DNA of 64,000 nt from Massilia agilis (GTDB lineage: Bacteria > Pseudomonadota > Gammaproteobacteria > Burkholderiales > Burkholderiaceae_D). The notes beneath the pieces are model-generated. The model ran no database searches and was not told the origin of the DNA. It was given only the letters and a program-made list of their open reading frames with translations. The stretch lies in contig NZ_JANUHB010000001.1 of the NCBI RefSeq assembly GCF_024756255.1, forward strand, positions 744,001-808,000. The letters run 5' to 3'. Shown here one piece after another: positions 1 to 6,434 of this stretch; position 1 is the stretch's first letter, and each line of letters opens with the position of its first letter. A program made the translations under genes and the position numbers.

Positions 1-77
1 CGTCCTTGGCACAGCTATTGCTATTTGCTCTTGTGTTTCACCAGTTTCGTTTTCAGCAATCACTTATCGAGGTGCGG

Positions 78-1658
78 ATGGATAGCAAGGCCCGGTCAGT
101 CACAAGACGTGAATTTTTATATCGTGCCGCCATGGTCGGCGGATCAGCGCTGCTGCTCAACACGATGAACGCATGGGGAATGGGGATCGCCTCGCAGGCC
201 GCCGCGCCGCCGCAACTGAGCGGCAGCGGCAAAGGCAAGAAGATCGTGATCCTCGGCGCCGGCCTGGCCGGCATGACGGCCGCGTACGAGCTCTCCAAGC
301 TCGGCTACGACTGCCAGGTCCTCGAGGCGCGCCACTTCGCCGGCGGCCGCTGCCAGACTGCGCGCAAGGGTTTCGCGCTGCAGGAACTGGGCGGCGAAAC
401 CCAGCACTGCAAGTTCGACCAGGGCCAGTACATCAACCACGGCCCGTGGCGCATCCCGCTCGACCACCAGTCGACGCTGTACTACACGCGCCAGTTCGAC
501 GTGCCGCTCGAAGTCATGGTCAACGAGAACGACCACGCGTTCGTGTACATGGAAGACGCCGGCCCGCTGTCGAAGCAGCGCCTGCGCGGCGAACAGCTCA
601 AGGCCGACATGCGCGGTCACGTGTCCGAGCTGCTCGCCAAGTCGGTCAAGGGCGGCCTGCTCGACCAGCAGATGACGAAGGACGACCAGATGCTGCTGCT
701 CGACTACCTCAAGCACGAGGGCGCGCTCGAAGGCGCCGAGCTGCAGTACAAGGGCCGCAGCGGCCGCGGTTACGCCGTCAACCCCGGCGCCGGCCTGGTC
801 GCGGGCACGCCGAGTGACCCGCTCGGCTTTCGCGACCTGCTCGCCGCCAAGGTGGGCAAGGTGTACAGCGCGGTGCAGGACTTCCCGATGCACGGCACGA
901 TGTTCCAGCCGGTCGGCGGCATGGACCAGATCGCCAAGGCGTTCGAGAAGCGCGTGCGCCGCCACATCCGCTACGGCGCCGAAGTGCAGTCGATCCGCCA
1001 GAACGCCGAGCAGGTGCTGGTCACCTACAAGGACGCCGGCGGCAAGGTCAGCACCATCGCGGCCGACTACTGCCTGTGCACGATCCCGCTGTCGGTGCTG
1101 CGCATGATCGACACCGACTTCACCGACAAATTCAAGGCCGCGATCCGCGGCGTGGCCTATGCCCCGGTCGGCAAGATCGGCCTGCAGATGAACCGCCGCT
1201 TCTGGGAAGAGGACGAACGCATCTACGGCGGCCACGTGCTGACCGACCTGAAGGCGATCAACACGATCTCGCTGCCGTCGACGGCCTGGCAATCGAAGAA
1301 GGGCGTGGTGCTGGGCTACTACCACTACGCGCTCGATGCGATCGAGGTCAGCGCCCTGTCGCCCGACCAGCGCGCCCAGTTCGCGCTCGACGCCGGCGAA
1401 AAGATCTTCCCCGGCGCCTACCGCGCTTCGTTCGACAACGCCTTCTCCGTGGCCTGGCATCGCGTCCAGTACAACCTGGGCGGCTGGGCCGAATGGACCG
1501 ACGACGGGCGCAAGGACGCCTACCCCACCCTGCTCGAAGGCGAAGGCCGGGTGATGCTGGCCGGCGAGCACCTGAGCTACCTGACCGGCTGGCAGGCCGG
1601 CGCCATCGAATCGGCGTGGCAGCAGATCGAGCAAATCCACCGGAGGGCCATGGCATGA
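78..1658 (+). CDS. Tat-exported flavin monoamine oxidase family protein
   Basis: An FAD-dependent amine or amino-acid oxidase of 526 residues. The start at 78 is chosen over an in-frame codon at 6 because GAGGTG lies just upstream and because it places a twin-arginine signal at the N-terminus: RR at residues 10-11 in TRREFL, followed by a hydrophobic stretch to about residue 40. The FAD Rossmann motif GAGLAG is at residues 60-65, Glu83 ends the second strand, and GGR follows at 89-91. The C-terminal FAD-contact segment GEHLSYLTGWQAGAIESA is typical of the family. The stop overlaps the start of a cytochrome c gene (ATGA), so the two are translationally coupled. In the same family, nicotine oxidoreductase NicA2 is Tat-exported and passes electrons to a cytochrome c rather than to oxygen; a similar dehydrogenase role is inferred here. 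The substrate is unknown. Confidence 0.88.
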   Translation: MDSKARSVTRREFLYRAAMVGGSALLLNTMNAWGMGIASQAAAPPQLSGSGKGKKIVILGAGLAGMTAAYELSKLGYDCQVLEARHFAGGRCQTARKGFALQELGGETQHCKFDQGQYINHGPWRIPLDHQSTLYYTRQFDVPLEVMVNENDHAFVYMEDAGPLSKQRLRGEQLKADMRGHVSELLAKSVKGGLLDQQMTKDDQMLLLDYLKHEGALEGAELQYKGRSGRGYAVNPGAGLVAGTPSDPLGFRDLLAAKVGKVYSAVQDFPMHGTMFQPVGGMDQIAKAFEKRVRRHIRYGAEVQSIRQNAEQVLVTYKDAGGKVSTIAADYCLCTIPLSVLRMIDTDFTDKFKAAIRGVAYAPVGKIGLQMNRRFWEEDERIYGGHVLTDLKAINTISLPSTAWQSKKGVVLGYYHYALDAIEVSALSPDQRAQFALDAGEKIFPGAYRASFDNAFSVAWHRVQYNLGGWAEWTDDGRKDAYPTLLEGEGRVMLAGEHLSYLTGWQAGAIESAWQQIEQIHRRAMA

Positions 1659-2065
1659 AATTCCACGAACTCGCGATCGGGTCGGCGCTGATGGCCGCCG
1701 CCGTGGCCTGGCACACGAACGTGCGGGCCGACACGCTCGACGGCAAGGCGCTGTTCGTCAAGAACTGCGCGGCCTGCCACCAGCCGACCGGCAAAGGCAT
1801 TCCCGGCGCCTTCCCCGCGCTGGCCGGCAATAGCTTCGTGCAGGGGCCGGCGCGCGACCCGGCCAGCGTGCTGCTCAAGGGACGTGGCGGCATGCCCAAC
1901 TTCAGCGGCAGCCTCGATGACGCCGAGATCGCGCAGGTGCTCAGCTACGTGCGCAGCAGCTGGGGCAACAGCGCCGCGCCGCTGACGCAGGACGAAGTGA
2001 GCGCACTGCGCACCGACCTGCAAGTGCCGCCGGCCAGCCACAGCCGCTTCGGCAACAAGCACTGA
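1655..2065 (+). CDS. periplasmic class I c-type cytochrome
   Basis: A small monohaem cytochrome c of 136 residues. A Sec signal peptide of about 25 residues ends near NVRA. The haem-binding CAACH is at residues 38-42, and Met80 in GRGGMPNF is a good candidate for the sixth ligand. The start overlaps the stop of the upstream amine oxidase by four bases, and a GGAGGG ribosome site lies just before it. This tight coupling suggests the cytochrome takes electrons from that flavoenzyme in the periplasm. That role is inferred; the fold assignment is secure. Confidence 0.9.
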   Translation: MKFHELAIGSALMAAAVAWHTNVRADTLDGKALFVKNCAACHQPTGKGIPGAFPALAGNSFVQGPARDPASVLLKGRGGMPNFSGSLDDAEIAQVLSYVRSSWGNSAAPLTQDEVSALRTDLQVPPASHSRFGNKH

Positions 2066-2096
2066 CCCGTTTTTCAAAACCCAGGAGGAAAACCGC

Positions 2097-2591
2097 ATGA
2101 ACAAAAACAAACTGATCGCCGCCCTGCTCTGCCTGATGCCGCTGGCCGCCAGCGCGGCCGGGCCGGCGATCGTCCGCCACAAGATCCCCGGCTCCGATTT
2201 CCCGATCGCGCAGGCAGTCACGCTGCCCGCCGGTACCGCCATCAGCTTCGTCAGCGGCCAGGTGCCGCCGCTGGTGGACAAGTCGGCCGACCCGAACTCG
2301 CTCGCCGCGTTCGGCGACACCAAGACCCAGACCGAGGGTGTGCTCAAGAAGATCGCCGAGGTCCTCAAGGGCATGGGCCTGTCGATGGGCGACGTGGTGA
2401 AGATGCAGGTGTTCCTGGTCGGCGATCCGGCCAAGGGCGGCAAGGCCGACGTGGCCGGCTTCATGCAGGCCTACACGCAGTTCTTCGGCGGCGCCCAGCC
2501 CAACCTGCCGGCACGCGCCGTGGTCCAGGTGGCCGCGCTTTCCAACCCGGGCTGGCTCGTCGAGATCGAGGTGGTGGCCGCGAAGAAGTAA
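2097..2591 (+). CDS. RidA (YjgF/YER057c/UK114) family protein with signal peptide
   Basis: A RidA-family protein of 164 residues, longer than the usual 125-130 because of an N-terminal Sec signal (LIAALLCLMPLAASA). RidA proteins hydrolyse reactive imines and enamines to ketones plus ammonia. The substrate-binding arginine is present as Arg140 in LPARAVVQV, and the family C-terminus VEIEVVA follows. A strong AGGAGG ribosome site precedes the ATG. It lies 31 bp after the cytochrome gene in the oxidase cluster, so its likely job is to hydrolyse the imine made by the oxidase. RidA is usually cytoplasmic, so predicted export is unusual. Confidence 0.88.
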   Translation: MNKNKLIAALLCLMPLAASAAGPAIVRHKIPGSDFPIAQAVTLPAGTAISFVSGQVPPLVDKSADPNSLAAFGDTKTQTEGVLKKIAEVLKGMGLSMGDVVKMQVFLVGDPAKGGKADVAGFMQAYTQFFGGAQPNLPARAVVQVAALSNPGWLVEIEVVAAKK

Positions 2592-2653
2592 GCACCGCCG
2601 CTCCCTGATTCCAGAAGTTGTACACAAACTGTTCGACCAAAAAAGGGAAATCC

Positions 2654-5107
2654 ATGCAAAAGGCAATCCTCAAGGGCGGCGTCGCCGCCATCGTCCTTCA
2701 CTCGGGCCTGGGCCTGGCCCACGCCGCGGAAGAAAAGCCGGCCGACACACCTGACCCCGCCGCGCAGGTGGCCAATGCGGGTGTCGTGATCGTGACCGGC
2801 ACCCGCGCCACCGGCCTGAAAGTCGAGAACAGCGCCTCGCCGGTGCAGGTGCTCGACTCCACCTCGCTGTCGCGCGCCGGCCAGCCCGACCTGATGCAGG
2901 CGCTGTCGCAGAACCTGCCCTCGCTGAACGCCCAGGCGTTCGGCAGCGACATGGCCGCCATGACGCTGTCCGCGCGCCTGCGCGGCCTGTCGCCGAACAA
3001 CACGCTGGTGCTCATCAACGGCAAGCGCCGCCACGGCACCTCGAACCTGTCGGTGCTGGGTGGCCCGTACCAGGGCGGCGCCGCGGCCGACCTGAACTAC
3101 ATCCCGATCGCCGCGATCGACCACGTCGAGGTGCTGCAGGACGGCGCCGCCGCGCAGTACGGCACCGACGCCATTGCGGGCGTGGTCAACATCATCCTCA
3201 AGTCGAACTACCAGGGCGGCACCGCCAGCATGAACGGCGGCGGCTACATGGACGAAGGCGGCCACACCGGCGATGCTTCGGCCAACATGGGCCTGACCCC
3301 GTTCGAAGGCGCCTTCCTGAGCCTGACCGCGGAATCGAAGTTCCACGGCTTTTCCAACCGCGGCGGGATCGACCCGCGCGTGACCGACCCGGCCACGCTG
3401 GCCGCGCAGCCGCAGCTGAAGAACAATAGCCTGTACCCGAACCTGAACCGGATCTCGGGCGACGCCCAGTACCGCCAGCACGTGTTCGCCGCCAACTTCG
3501 GGGCCGATATCAGCAACGACGCCAGCGTGTACAGCTTTGCCACCTATGGCGAAAAGAAGGCGCGCGCGTTCGAGAACTACCGCATGCCCAGCCGTATCCC
3601 CAAGGTCTATCCGAACGGCTTCTCGCCGCTGGAGACCTTCAACGAGCAGGACTATGCGCTCACGGTCGGCGCCAAGTTCAAGGCGCTGGGCTGGAGCTTC
3701 GACCTGTCGAGCACCTACGGCAAGGACGTGAGCAAGATCGGCGTGGCCAGTTCGGCCAACGTCTCGCTGTTCAACGATACCGGCTTCACGCCCACCGAGT
3801 TCAGGGCCGGCGAATTCCACGCAAGCCAGCTGACCAACAACCTGGACCTGTCGCGTGAATTCGACGTTGGCATGGCCTCGCCCCTGAACGTGGCCGCAGG
3901 CCTGGAGCAGCGCCGCGACACCTACGAGATCGTGGCCGGCGACGCCGCATCGCGCTACAAGGAAGGCTCGCAGTCGTTCCCGGGCTTTTCGCTGACCGAC
4001 GCCGGTTCCCACAGCCGCACCGGCAAGGCCGGCTACGTGGACATCTCGGGCAAGCCGGTCACCGACCTGACGGTGGACCTGGCCGCGCGCTACGAGCACT
4101 TCAGCGACTTCGGCAACGCCAAGGTGGGCAAGCTGACCACGCGCTACGATTTCTCGCCGGCGGTCGGCGTGCGCGCCACCTACAGCAATGGCTTTCGCGC
4201 GCCGACGCTGGCCGAGGAATACTACTCGGCCACCAACGTGTCGCCGCGCAGCGCCTTCGTCCAGCTGCCGCCGAACTCCGCCGGCGCCAAGCTGGTGGGC
4301 GTGAATGGCCTGAAGCCCGAGGCATCGACCAACATCAGCGCCGGCATCGTGCTGCACCCGACCGCGAACCTGGCGATCACGCTGGACGCCTACCAGATCA
4401 GCATCCGCGACCGCATCGTCGGCAGCGGCGCGCTGTACGGCTCGGGCGGCGCGATCAACTCGCCGGCGGTCATCAAGGCCATCATCGCCAACGGCAACGT
4501 GCTCGACCCGACCGTGGTGCAGACCGGGATCAACATCTTCTCGAACGCGGTCAACACCCGCAGCCGGGGCCTGGAGTTCGTCGCCACGCTGAACAGCAGC
4601 TACGGCGAGTGGGGCAAGGTGGACTGGTCGGCCGCCGCCAACTACAACAAGGTGGAGGTCACCAAGATCAACCAGGCGCCGGCCCAGCTGCAGCCGCAGA
4701 CGCTGCTCGACCCGTCGGCCATCGCCGACATCGAGACCGCGTCGCCGCGCATGCGCCTGAACCTGGGCGCCTTGTGGAAGCTTGGGAAGTGGACGATGAA
4801 CCTGCGCGAGGCGTTCTACGGAAGGTCCGAGTCGCTCGATTCGTCCGACGGCGCCGTGTGGTACAAGAACGAGGTCAAGCCGACCTGGATCACGGACCTG
4901 GAACTGGCGTACAGCCCGTCCAAGACCTGGACCTTCGCGGTCGGTGCGAACAACTTGTTCAACACCTACCCGAACCAGGTCAACGCGACGCTGCTGGCCG
5001 AGCGCCGCGCCAACCTGGATAACGGCGCAGTCACGCTCTACCCGTCGTTCTCGCCGTTCGGGATCAACGGCGGCTACTACTATGCGCGTGCCAGCATGAA
5101 GTTCTAA
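2654..5107 (+). CDS. TonB-dependent outer-membrane receptor
   Basis: An outer-membrane active-transport receptor of 817 residues. The start at 2654 is preferred to an upstream in-frame codon at 2618 because AAGGGA precedes it and a signal peptide ending in GLAHA begins there. The plug domain follows, with VIVTGTR, the arginine-rich INGKRRH segment and the typical QDGAAAQYGTDAIAGVVNIIL. A beta-barrel fills the rest and ends in aromatic YYYARASMKF, the usual C-terminal Phe. It is 62 bp after the RidA gene and probably imports the substrate of the periplasmic oxidase; no ligand can be read from sequence. The 3' end overlaps the convergent channel gene by three bases. Confidence 0.92.
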   Translation: MQKAILKGGVAAIVLHSGLGLAHAAEEKPADTPDPAAQVANAGVVIVTGTRATGLKVENSASPVQVLDSTSLSRAGQPDLMQALSQNLPSLNAQAFGSDMAAMTLSARLRGLSPNNTLVLINGKRRHGTSNLSVLGGPYQGGAAADLNYIPIAAIDHVEVLQDGAAAQYGTDAIAGVVNIILKSNYQGGTASMNGGGYMDEGGHTGDASANMGLTPFEGAFLSLTAESKFHGFSNRGGIDPRVTDPATLAAQPQLKNNSLYPNLNRISGDAQYRQHVFAANFGADISNDASVYSFATYGEKKARAFENYRMPSRIPKVYPNGFSPLETFNEQDYALTVGAKFKALGWSFDLSSTYGKDVSKIGVASSANVSLFNDTGFTPTEFRAGEFHASQLTNNLDLSREFDVGMASPLNVAAGLEQRRDTYEIVAGDAASRYKEGSQSFPGFSLTDAGSHSRTGKAGYVDISGKPVTDLTVDLAARYEHFSDFGNAKVGKLTTRYDFSPAVGVRATYSNGFRAPTLAEEYYSATNVSPRSAFVQLPPNSAGAKLVGVNGLKPEASTNISAGIVLHPTANLAITLDAYQISIRDRIVGSGALYGSGGAINSPAVIKAIIANGNVLDPTVVQTGINIFSNAVNTRSRGLEFVATLNSSYGEWGKVDWSAAANYNKVEVTKINQAPAQLQPQTLLDPSAIADIETASPRMRLNLGALWKLGKWTMNLREAFYGRSESLDSSDGAVWYKNEVKPTWITDLELAYSPSKTWTFAVGANNLFNTYPNQVNATLLAERRANLDNGAVTLYPSFSPFGINGGYYYARASMKF

Positions 5108-6003
5108 GTGCCGGCGGGACTGCGGGACGGCAGCGCTGCCCCGCAGTCCTTGCAGAAGCGGGCTTCGCGCGCATGCCCGTGCGACCCGCAGGCGGCGCAG
5201 GCCGGCGTCGCGGGCCCCCTCGCCGCGCCCCGACCCCATTCCTGGCGGGTCATCTCCGCCGTCACGATTCCCGTGGGCACGGCCAGGATGCCCCATCCCA
5301 GCAGCATCATGAACGAGGCGATCAGCTTGCCCAGGCTGGTGTGCGGCGTGATGTCGCCGTAGCCAACGGTGGTCATGGTCACGATGGCCCAGTACATCGA
5401 GACCGGGATGCTGGTGTAGCCGTTCTTGGGCCCCTCGACCACGTACATCACGGTACCCAGCACCAGCACTGCCATCACCACGGCGGACAGGAACACCATG
5501 ATCTTGCGGCGGCTTGCCAGCAGGGCCTCGCCCAGCCGGGTGTATTCCTGCACGTACAGCGTGAGCTTGAAGATCCGGAAGACGCGCAGCAGGCGCAGGA
5601 TGCGAATGTCCAGCAGCAGCGCGCTGCCCGGCACCAGCAGCGAAAAATACGTGGGCAGCACCGACAGCAGGTCGACGATGCCGTAGAAGCCGGTCGCGTA
5701 GCGCCACGGCCGGCGCACGCACCAGATCCGGGCAAGGTACTCGGCGGTGAACAGGGCCGTGAACATGCACTCGGCCGCGAACAGCACGCCGTCGTAGTCT
5801 TTGTCCAGTTCGGGCACGCTGTCGAGCACCACCACCAGGATGCTGAGCAGGATCGCGCACACGAGCACGATGTCGAAGCGGCGGCCGGCCGGGGTGTCCG
5901 ACTCGAAGATGATGTCGTAGAGCCGCCCGCGCAGCTCGCCGCGCGGGCGCCCGTACGAGGCCGGCGCCTGGGGTACGTAGCTTGGCGATGGCTGGTCGTT
6001 CAT
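5104..6003 (-). CDS. voltage-gated K+ channel with C-terminal zinc ribbon
   Basis: A six-helix potassium channel of 299 residues. The selectivity filter TVGYGD is at about residue 210, and S4 is the arginine-spaced helix DIRILRLLRVFRIFKL. After S6 comes a linker and a CxxC...CxxC zinc ribbon (CAACGSHGH, FCKDCGAAL) in the last 35 residues. The ATG at 6003 overlaps the stop of the upstream VOC gene, indicating coupling; a longer open frame reaching 6117 overlaps that gene and is not used. It would conduct K+ across the inner membrane. The zinc-ribbon tail occurs, as I recall, in other proteobacterial members annotated ion transporter. Confidence 0.9.
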   Translation of the reverse strand: MNDQPSPSYVPQAPASYGRPRGELRGRLYDIIFESDTPAGRRFDIVLVCAILLSILVVVLDSVPELDKDYDGVLFAAECMFTALFTAEYLARIWCVRRPWRYATGFYGIVDLLSVLPTYFSLLVPGSALLLDIRILRLLRVFRIFKLTLYVQEYTRLGEALLASRRKIMVFLSAVVMAVLVLGTVMYVVEGPKNGYTSIPVSMYWAIVTMTTVGYGDITPHTSLGKLIASFMMLLGWGILAVPTGIVTAEMTRQEWGRGAARGPATPACAACGSHGHAREARFCKDCGAALPSRSPAGT

Positions 6004-6434
6004 GCCCTCGGGCCCTTGAGCTCGATGGTGTTCCCCTCCGGGTCCTGCAGGTAGATCGACGGTCCCTCGCCCTCGGCGCCGTAGCGGCTCTCGGTAGGGC
6101 CGGCCTGCACGCCGCACGCCGCCAGGTGAGCGCGGATCGCCGCCTCGTCGAAAGGCTCGACGCGCAAGCAGAAATGGTCGAGGTTGCGCCCCTCGGCCCC
6201 GGGCGCGGCGCCGCCCGCCTTGCCCAGCTTGCCGTCCACCGGCACCAGGTCAATCAACGAGCTGCCGGCGCGCAGCTGCACCAGGCCGATCTCGTCCTGG
6301 CGCCGCTCGACCGCGCAGCCGAGCACCTTGCCGTAAAAGCCGACCATGGCGTCCAGGTCGCGCACGCGCAGCACGATGTGGTCGATGTGAAGGACGCCGA
6401 TGGCGTGGGTGGTGGCGTTGGTTTCAGTCCGCAT
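6000..6434 (-). CDS. VOC family (glyoxalase/dioxygenase-like) protein
   Basis: A single vicinal-oxygen-chelate domain of about 144 residues. The first half opens with HIDHIVLRVRDLDAMVGFY and the second carries NLDHFCLRV and IYLQDPEGNTIEL, giving His, His and Glu positions consistent with a metal site. The start at 6434 has GGAG six bases upstream; an ATG at 6464 is possible. It overlaps the 3' end of the FMN reductase gene by 11 bases and the 5' end of the channel gene by four, so the three form one transcript. The substrate cannot be told; members include glyoxalases, extradiol dioxygenases and resistance proteins. Confidence 0.85.
   Translation of the reverse strand: MRTETNATTHAIGVLHIDHIVLRVRDLDAMVGFYGKVLGCAVERRQDEIGLVQLRAGSSLIDLVPVDGKLGKAGGAAPGAEGRNLDHFCLRVEPFDEAAIRAHLAACGVQAGPTESRYGAEGEGPSIYLQDPEGNTIELKGPRA

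Follow-up and report, generated by a model that had tools for sequence, protein, structure and literature searches.

What does a set of four exported proteins do in a soil bacterium, and why should it stand behind a gene derived from a transposase? This question is raised by the start of the window, a stretch of 64,000 nucleotides from Massilia agilis (contig NZ_JANUHB010000001.1, positions 744,001 to 808,000), in which four consecutive plus-strand genes at 78-5107 encode an oxidase, a cytochrome c, a Rid protein and a TonB-dependent receptor. With a probability of roughly two in three, we favor a sigma-54-driven operon for the periplasmic oxidation of L-amino acids that is accompanied by a regulator derived from TnsB, a DDE transposase of the Tn7 type. 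The exported oxidase would dehydrogenate L-amino acids, with the cytochrome c expressed alongside it as the electron acceptor. The Rid3 protein, likewise exported, would convert the imino acid into a 2-oxo acid and ammonia, and the outer-membrane receptor would import a substrate or else a ligand related to the product, which might be a metal chelate. In Massilia and Duganella, the operon would have gained a TnsB that lost its catalytic triad and kept its end-binding region, and this protein would act, either as a repressor or as a DNA-bending helper, at sites resembling Tn7 ends that lie downstream of its gene and ahead of the sigma-54 promoter.

A preliminary description of this DNA had proposed that the four genes are all of exported or outer-membrane type, and this is what the domains and leaders indicate. 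The first gene (78..1658), whose start codon is preceded by 77 bases of window, encodes a predicted FAD-dependent L-amino acid oxidase (LAAO) of 526 aa (Pfam Amino_oxidase, E 2.5e-49) with SVTRREFL near its N-terminus, a signal of the twin-arginine (Tat) type. Its stop codon overlaps the start of the cytochrome c gene in an ATGA at 1655-1658, just as the preliminary description had it. The cytochrome (1655..2065; Pfam Cytochrome_CBB3 and Cytochrom_C) is of periplasmic type, with one CXXCH and a Sec-like leader. The Rid gene (2097..2591; Pfam Ribonuc_L-PSP, E 2.3e-20) likewise encodes a Sec-like leader, with the N-terminus MNKNKLIAALLCLMPLAASA, and is followed by the receptor gene (2654..5107 from its ATG), in which Pfam finds both the Plug and the beta-barrel domain (TonB_dep_Rec).

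The preliminary description had further suggested searching for the four-gene order across genomes, and had named rare co-occurrence as an outcome that would speak against it. Co-occurrence is not rare: among 32 close loci, namely the window and 31 fetched loci (L003-L032, L051) with oxidase identities of 73-97%, 31 have oxidase, cytochrome, Rid and receptor in this order on one strand. Oxidase, cytochrome and receptor keep their order in 31/31 fetched close loci, and Rid is there too in 30; L019 lacks Rid, and in L018 the receptor is cut by the contig end. In another locus, L033 (the same contig as L144, reached by two routes), all four genes are present and rearranged. In the named collection, the oxidase of Massilia solisilvae comes closest, with 97% identity. 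Within the genus, matches to the exported Rid occur in 27 of 62 genomes, and the same 27 contain a receptor of at least 73% identity (in two pieces in G004, with one stop in G055). A full-length oxidase is found in 25 of them (in G049 with one stop, read through); the oxidase of G055 is partial, and G023 has no oxidase and a Rid match that is partial as well. A receptor remnant with stops and 72% identity (G020:C1:5704986-5706098, L194) and an oxidase remnant (G059:C5:193693-193992, L129), each in a genome otherwise without the operon, suggest that the whole set has been lost there.

Outside the close loci, in 20 more distant loci of the family, the oxidase has a receptor nearby in 14 cases, a Rid gene in 13, a cytochrome c gene in 13 and the complete set in 8, often in different orders. 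The corresponding counts for 28 wider Proteobacterial loci are 12, 22, 19 and 6. Simple tests for export, supplied with 73 loci and giving a row only where a family match was present, found a hydrophobic stretch before Rid in 57/65 and before cytochrome c in 54/58 rows, and a twin-arginine-like motif in 65/73 oxidases. In L199 and L201, the oxidase-adjacent Rid has no export leader despite the presence of oxidase and receptor. One locus, L212:7404-16559, packs into about 9 kb two oxidase genes, each paired with one for a cytochrome c, together with two Rid-type genes and a single receptor. At E 1e-4, none of the three partners was found beside distant oxidases in 21/21 loci (L034-L050, L052-L055), some of which are short. 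Some of these distant oxidases (about 47%; L036 and related Woeseiaceae-type loci), without the three partners, have a YceI-domain gene immediately upstream; the domain was assigned by Pfam in L036 only, and homologues of the L036 gene occur in 13 further loci.

The promoter of the operon is marked by TGGCACAGCTATTGCT at 7..22 on the plus strand, 71 bases upstream of the oxidase ATG, which fits the strict sigma-54 (-24/-12) pattern TGGCAC-N5-TTGCW. In 32 of 33 loci the oxidase is preceded by this pattern, which has 33 matches in total on both strands of these loci, over 1.37 million positions. Transcription of the four genes from a sigma-54 promoter is hence a strongly supported prediction. 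A relaxed sigma-54-like site is present in 8 of 48 family and wider oxidase loci that lack the TnsB-derived gene, suggesting that the promoter may predate the regulator, yet it is not universal. Half sites of the NtrC type (score at least 8) show no more than a mild enrichment: 18 of 31 regions have them, compared to 26% of the Markov copies and 15% of windows taken from the genome.

First, we focus on the reaction. The oxidase aligns over residues 48-524 of 526 with the L-amino acid oxidase of Rhodococcus opacus (RoLAAO, 2jae; E 2.3e-88), whereas 5ttj and 7kho, which we take to be NicA2 entries, align with residues 9-110 only (E about 1e-7). RoLAAO Arg84 and Tyr371, presumably the residues that bind the carboxylate of the substrate, and Trp426 and Trp467 align with R125, Y415, W473 and W505 of the window's oxidase. 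R125, Y415 and W505 are invariant in 12/12 aligned relatives and W473 is nearly so. Two features set the window's oxidase apart from RoLAAO, its Tat signal and the overlap of its gene with that of a cytochrome c, and in the alignment Met and Gly stand opposite RoLAAO Gln228 and Ala466. By homology, the oxidase is LAAO-like and not NicA2-like. Because the homology to LAAO is full-length and the NicA2 match N-terminal only, an L-alpha-amino acid is a more likely substrate than a general amine, and the model of the preliminary description, NicA2 with its cytochrome c, has to be given up along with the kinship that it implied. NicA2 is an exported flavin amine oxidase with a cytochrome c partner, and a gene for an exported amine oxidase that overlaps one for a cytochrome c does resemble this precedent. 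However, the window's oxidase lies on a different branch of the amine oxidase family, and the conservation of the putative carboxylate-binding Arg and Tyr makes an alkaloid or amine substrate highly improbable.

The Rid protein fits an amino acid oxidase as well. Its closest solved proteins are PSPTO3006 and PFL1385 (PDB 9bka, 9bkc; E about 1e-33), which have the catalytic Arg in common with it (R140 in the window), and its I37 aligns with a Tyr of 2dyy. In the Rid3 subfamily, Ile replaces the Tyr of RidA (PMC4433059). The protein, described earlier as a RidA with a Sec signal, thus retains its signal and changes its family: it is of the Rid3 type and a predicted imine hydrolase. PSPTO3006 and PFL1385 are reported to hydrolyze imines produced by L-amino acid oxidase (PMC5619798), and genes of FAD amine oxidases cluster with RidA and sometimes with Rid3 genes (Niehaus et al., PMC4433059). 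Unlike these two relatives, the window's protein has a clear Sec-like leader and belongs to an oxidase operon. Based on families and gene order, periplasmic oxidation of L-amino acids followed by hydrolysis of the imine by Rid is well supported. This upholds the earlier proposal that the exported proteins form one set, in which a cytochrome c serves the oxidation and Rid acts on the imine.

A comparable core has been published. In Gluconacetobacter diazotrophicus PAL5, a predicted Tat-type LAAO, a cytochrome c and a Rid protein are encoded in the cluster lao-cccA-ridA, for which co-transcription was suggested (2016; PMC5053998). Insertions in lao abolish the formation of indole-3-acetic acid (IAA), and mutants in cytochrome c maturation reach 5% of the wild-type level, as cited in the same paper (PMC5053998). 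The gene overlap together with these genetics supports the cytochrome c as the probable electron acceptor in Massilia. The sole pointer to Fur control is a Fur box predicted upstream of a Gluconacetobacter nuo-lao set (PMC9368920). The loss of IAA in the lao mutants might also be taken to mean that the Massilia cluster makes IAA from tryptophan. This seems improbable, since the two clusters are likened by their description and not by the sequences of their oxidases, and no decarboxylase was seen in the open reading frame list of 11 of the 28 wider clusters, inspected by eye without domain searches. Nor did this list show a recurring peptidase, transporter or other fifth gene. In contrast to the Massilia operon, the available text on lao-cccA-ridA does not contain the word TonB and reports no TnsB-derived gene, sites or sigma-54 promoter (PMC5053998). 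The claim that a self-contained system of this kind had not been described can thus hold for the receptor only. The trio was in print, while no four-part set with a receptor was found in searches of the open-license literature.

Does the receptor belong with the oxidase? The genome of the window has 40 receptor matches, of which 30 were fetched. In a tree of 47 receptors, one clade (support 100/99), to which the window's receptor is assigned, has 27 of its 29 rows linked to an oxidase, while five further linked rows form a separate clade. The tree left out L239, which is the window's own receptor, four weak rows of the background, and L233 and L250, which duplicate L192 and L193. No match to the hidden Markov model, and hence no row, was obtained for the linked loci L048 and L050 and for 12 of the 30 loci of the background. 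The receptors near the L048 and L050 oxidases lie outside this receptor family. By position and phylogeny, the receptor is linked to the oxidase in this lineage and often beyond it, and one receptor clade adjoins this oxidase family across Proteobacteria, a link that is new in the literature found.

The purpose of the operon might then be the capture of nitrogen or of a metal. Sigma-54 often serves nitrogen control. Because of this and because the proposed reaction frees ammonia, nitrogen scavenging is the likeliest purpose. In the main rival, 2-oxo acids made in the periplasm would be released to act as weak siderophores, and the receptor would retrieve the metal complex. Free amino acids need no TonB receptor, which favors such a role. 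Moreover, the two receptors of the clade that are not linked to an oxidase adjoin copper genes and an outer-membrane efflux gene (L190:6866-9322 with CopC; L191:7289-9742 with a multicopper oxidase and CopD), which hints at metal chelates as possible ligands of this kind of receptor. However, these copper neighbors lie on a long separate branch of the receptor tree, and genes of metal uptake are not usually under sigma-54 control. The scheme was proposed for Proteus and its relatives, in which amino acid deaminases make iron-chelating 2-oxo acids, with conflicting evidence on their role (PMC11026637). Taken together, we regard metal capture as unlikely, if the most serious alternative to nitrogen scavenging.

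Second, we turn to the control of the operon. A gene of 246 aa derived from TnsB lies at G000:C1:742890-743630 (= L085:12890-13630) on the plus strand of the window's genome (G000, 32 contigs), outside the window, which starts at 744001 and was all that the preliminary description could draw on; this gene and its sites are the greatest surprise of the locus. In 31 of the 33 loci such a gene lies ahead of the operon in the same orientation; L030, cut by the contig edge, and L033, which has no match, are not among these 31. Counted from the first start codon, and thus as upper bounds, 19 of the linked copies are full-length (584-731 aa) and 12 are short (243-278 aa). A profile of the full-length form matches Tn7 TnsB (7pik, E 2.2e-82), and the short form of the window's genome matches residues 84-235 of the same protein (E 1.2e-21) and nothing else below E 0.1. 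The form found in Massilia therefore keeps the N-terminal DNA-binding part and has lost the catalytic half. In L006 and L016, a short TnsB-derived reading frame is followed by a gap of about 1.3 kb to the oxidase, compared to the usual 0.15-0.5 kb or so, and the gene is possibly midway in losing its catalytic half.

In a family sample of 392 genomes, 65 have an oxidase of at least 74% identity (24 in the same genus, 39 in genus g40, 2 in g4), and a comparison of two tables by reading places a TnsB-like match within about 2 kb of the oxidase in 65/65. No TnsB-like gene was found beside 8/8 oxidases of 60-67% identity (L140-L147), nor in 48/48 family and wider loci overall. The catalytic triad (residues 273, 361 and 396 of Tn7 TnsB) is intact in 0/19 full-length linked copies and in 4/4 true TnsBs, those of the Tn7 in plasmid R721 and of three elements in the genus. 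Nevertheless, dN/dS is 0.06-0.49 in all pairs listed (more than 72% identical; short, full-length and solo forms; Nei-Gojobori script), indicating that a dead TnsB-derived protein is maintained by selection. Beside the window's copy there is no TnsA, TnsC or TnsD; its neighbors include acyltransferase, two-component and oxidase genes. The proteins thus resemble Tn7 TnsB (7pik, R721) over most of the full-length forms and in the retained N-terminal DNA-binding region, and differ from it in the broken triad, the missing partners and the short form.

The second resemblance to Tn7 is in the DNA. Conserved AT-rich blocks occupy the interval from the TnsB-derived gene to the sigma-54 promoter, and they contain the end-type motif AATAAAGTCT, with a consensus of about AAATAAAGTCTGT. 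In 31 loci, the 360 bases leading up to the oxidase (11.2 kb altogether) contain 45 copies of AATAAAGT, counted on either strand, compared to a single copy in the remaining 649 kb of these loci. The window's genome has one copy on the plus strand at G000:C1:743746 and one on the minus strand at 743905, which places them 255 and 96 bases upstream of the window start. The looser AA[TC]AAAGT occurs 57 times compared to 5, with at least one in 31/31 loci; sets of Markov copies of these regions average 0.66 and never exceed 3. Among oxidase loci without a TnsB-derived gene, 2/48 (L204, L213) have the looser motif in the corresponding 360 bases; a first control covered 14 of 20 family loci, the repeat all 48 family and wider loci. 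Successive forward sites are spaced by 19-21 bases in 9/9 cases. The right-end sequence of Tn7 (Tn7R) was found at 100% identity in R721 beside a TnsA and a DDE transposase gene, and there CAATAAAGTCTT occurs twice. One true Tn7-like element of the genus, L128, has a threefold AATAAAGT array 20-21 bases apart. As to further targets of the TnsB-derived protein, AAYAAAGTNTG has 3 matches in the window's genome, one of them at the operon, and a reversed control pattern has 4. Tandem pairs of sites occur in 4 of 12 genomes, at the operon in G014 and G052 and at other places in G059 and G252.

From these sequence comparisons, regulation by the TnsB-derived protein at end-type sites seems to be the arrangement, and the balance tilts towards a Tn7-type DDE transposase that was turned into a dedicated transcription regulator and controls a sigma-54 operon for oxidation and TonB-dependent uptake via copies of its former end sites. 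The alternative is that gene and motifs were left behind by a Tn7-like element in which, or next to which, the operon once lay, and that they are kept by descent without a role in regulation. True Tn7-like elements with TnsA, an intact-triad TnsB, a TniB-like (TnsC-type) ATPase and TnsD/TniQ do exist in the genus (L126 in G021, L127 in G028, L128 in G058), one of the three with a motif array, and solo TnsB-derived genes lack the motif, both of which would suit a relic. However, a relic would hardly have intact reading frames with dN/dS below 0.5, short forms included, a place beside every close oxidase of the sample and motifs at similar positions before the promoter. Neither was a second set of motifs, which could represent the other transposon end, found within about 10 kb at the far end of the operon. 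We therefore consider a mere relic unlikely.

Several observations weigh against regulation by this protein or against the explanation as a whole. TnsB has no sigma-54-activating AAA+ domain, and the activator must thus be encoded elsewhere. The motif array was not seen, in the DNA fetched, in two of the three true Tn7-like elements of the genus. Solo short TnsB-derived genes have the motif in 0/10 and 0/5 (L260-L264) loci within the 15-17 kb fetched, suggesting that the protein has another task there or that an old target was lost. Of the 88 genomes in the family sample that have a TnsB-like match, 23 lack a close oxidase; two of these 23, G021 and G058, carry true Tn7-like elements. The close loci are related by descent and are hence not independent events, and just 12 of the 28 wider loci have a receptor near the oxidase. 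Finally, the Rhodococcus LAAO is a true oxygen-using oxidase.

As far as found, the enzyme core is known, and the receptor link and the TnsB-derived regulator are new. Mobile-element proteins have been recruited as bacterial transcription factors before, and the step from a DNA-binding protein of a mobile element to a host regulator is the same (PMC8987985). Unlike the present case, those examples are helix-turn-helix regulators and antitoxins, with no occurrence of TnsB or DDE in the text available, and searches of the open-license literature, including the available parts of PMC8987985 and PMC10293859, yielded no TnsB-derived bacterial regulator. A little-noticed oxidase operon becomes a definite system of the cell envelope, equipped with a receptor in the outer membrane, that can be tested for nitrogen or metal capture. 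Moreover, a bacterial DDE transposase is apparently caught at several stages of domestication: full-length and dead, trimmed to its DNA-binding part, and solo. Sites that once marked transposon ends now precede a promoter, and the question of how a transposase becomes a regulator would be directly testable in culturable Massilia and Duganella.

The solo short genes (L116-L125, L260-L264) sit at one conserved chromosomal place and are under purifying selection; some of their genomes have the operon at another place and others have no operon. A long TnsB-like copy at another place (L259) has no motif either. The solo copies are flanked by acyltransferase and two-component genes on one side and by ion channel or FMN reductase genes on the other, and the same flanks enclose the operon of the window, where an ion-channel gene assigned by Pfam follows the receptor gene at 5104-6117 on the minus strand.

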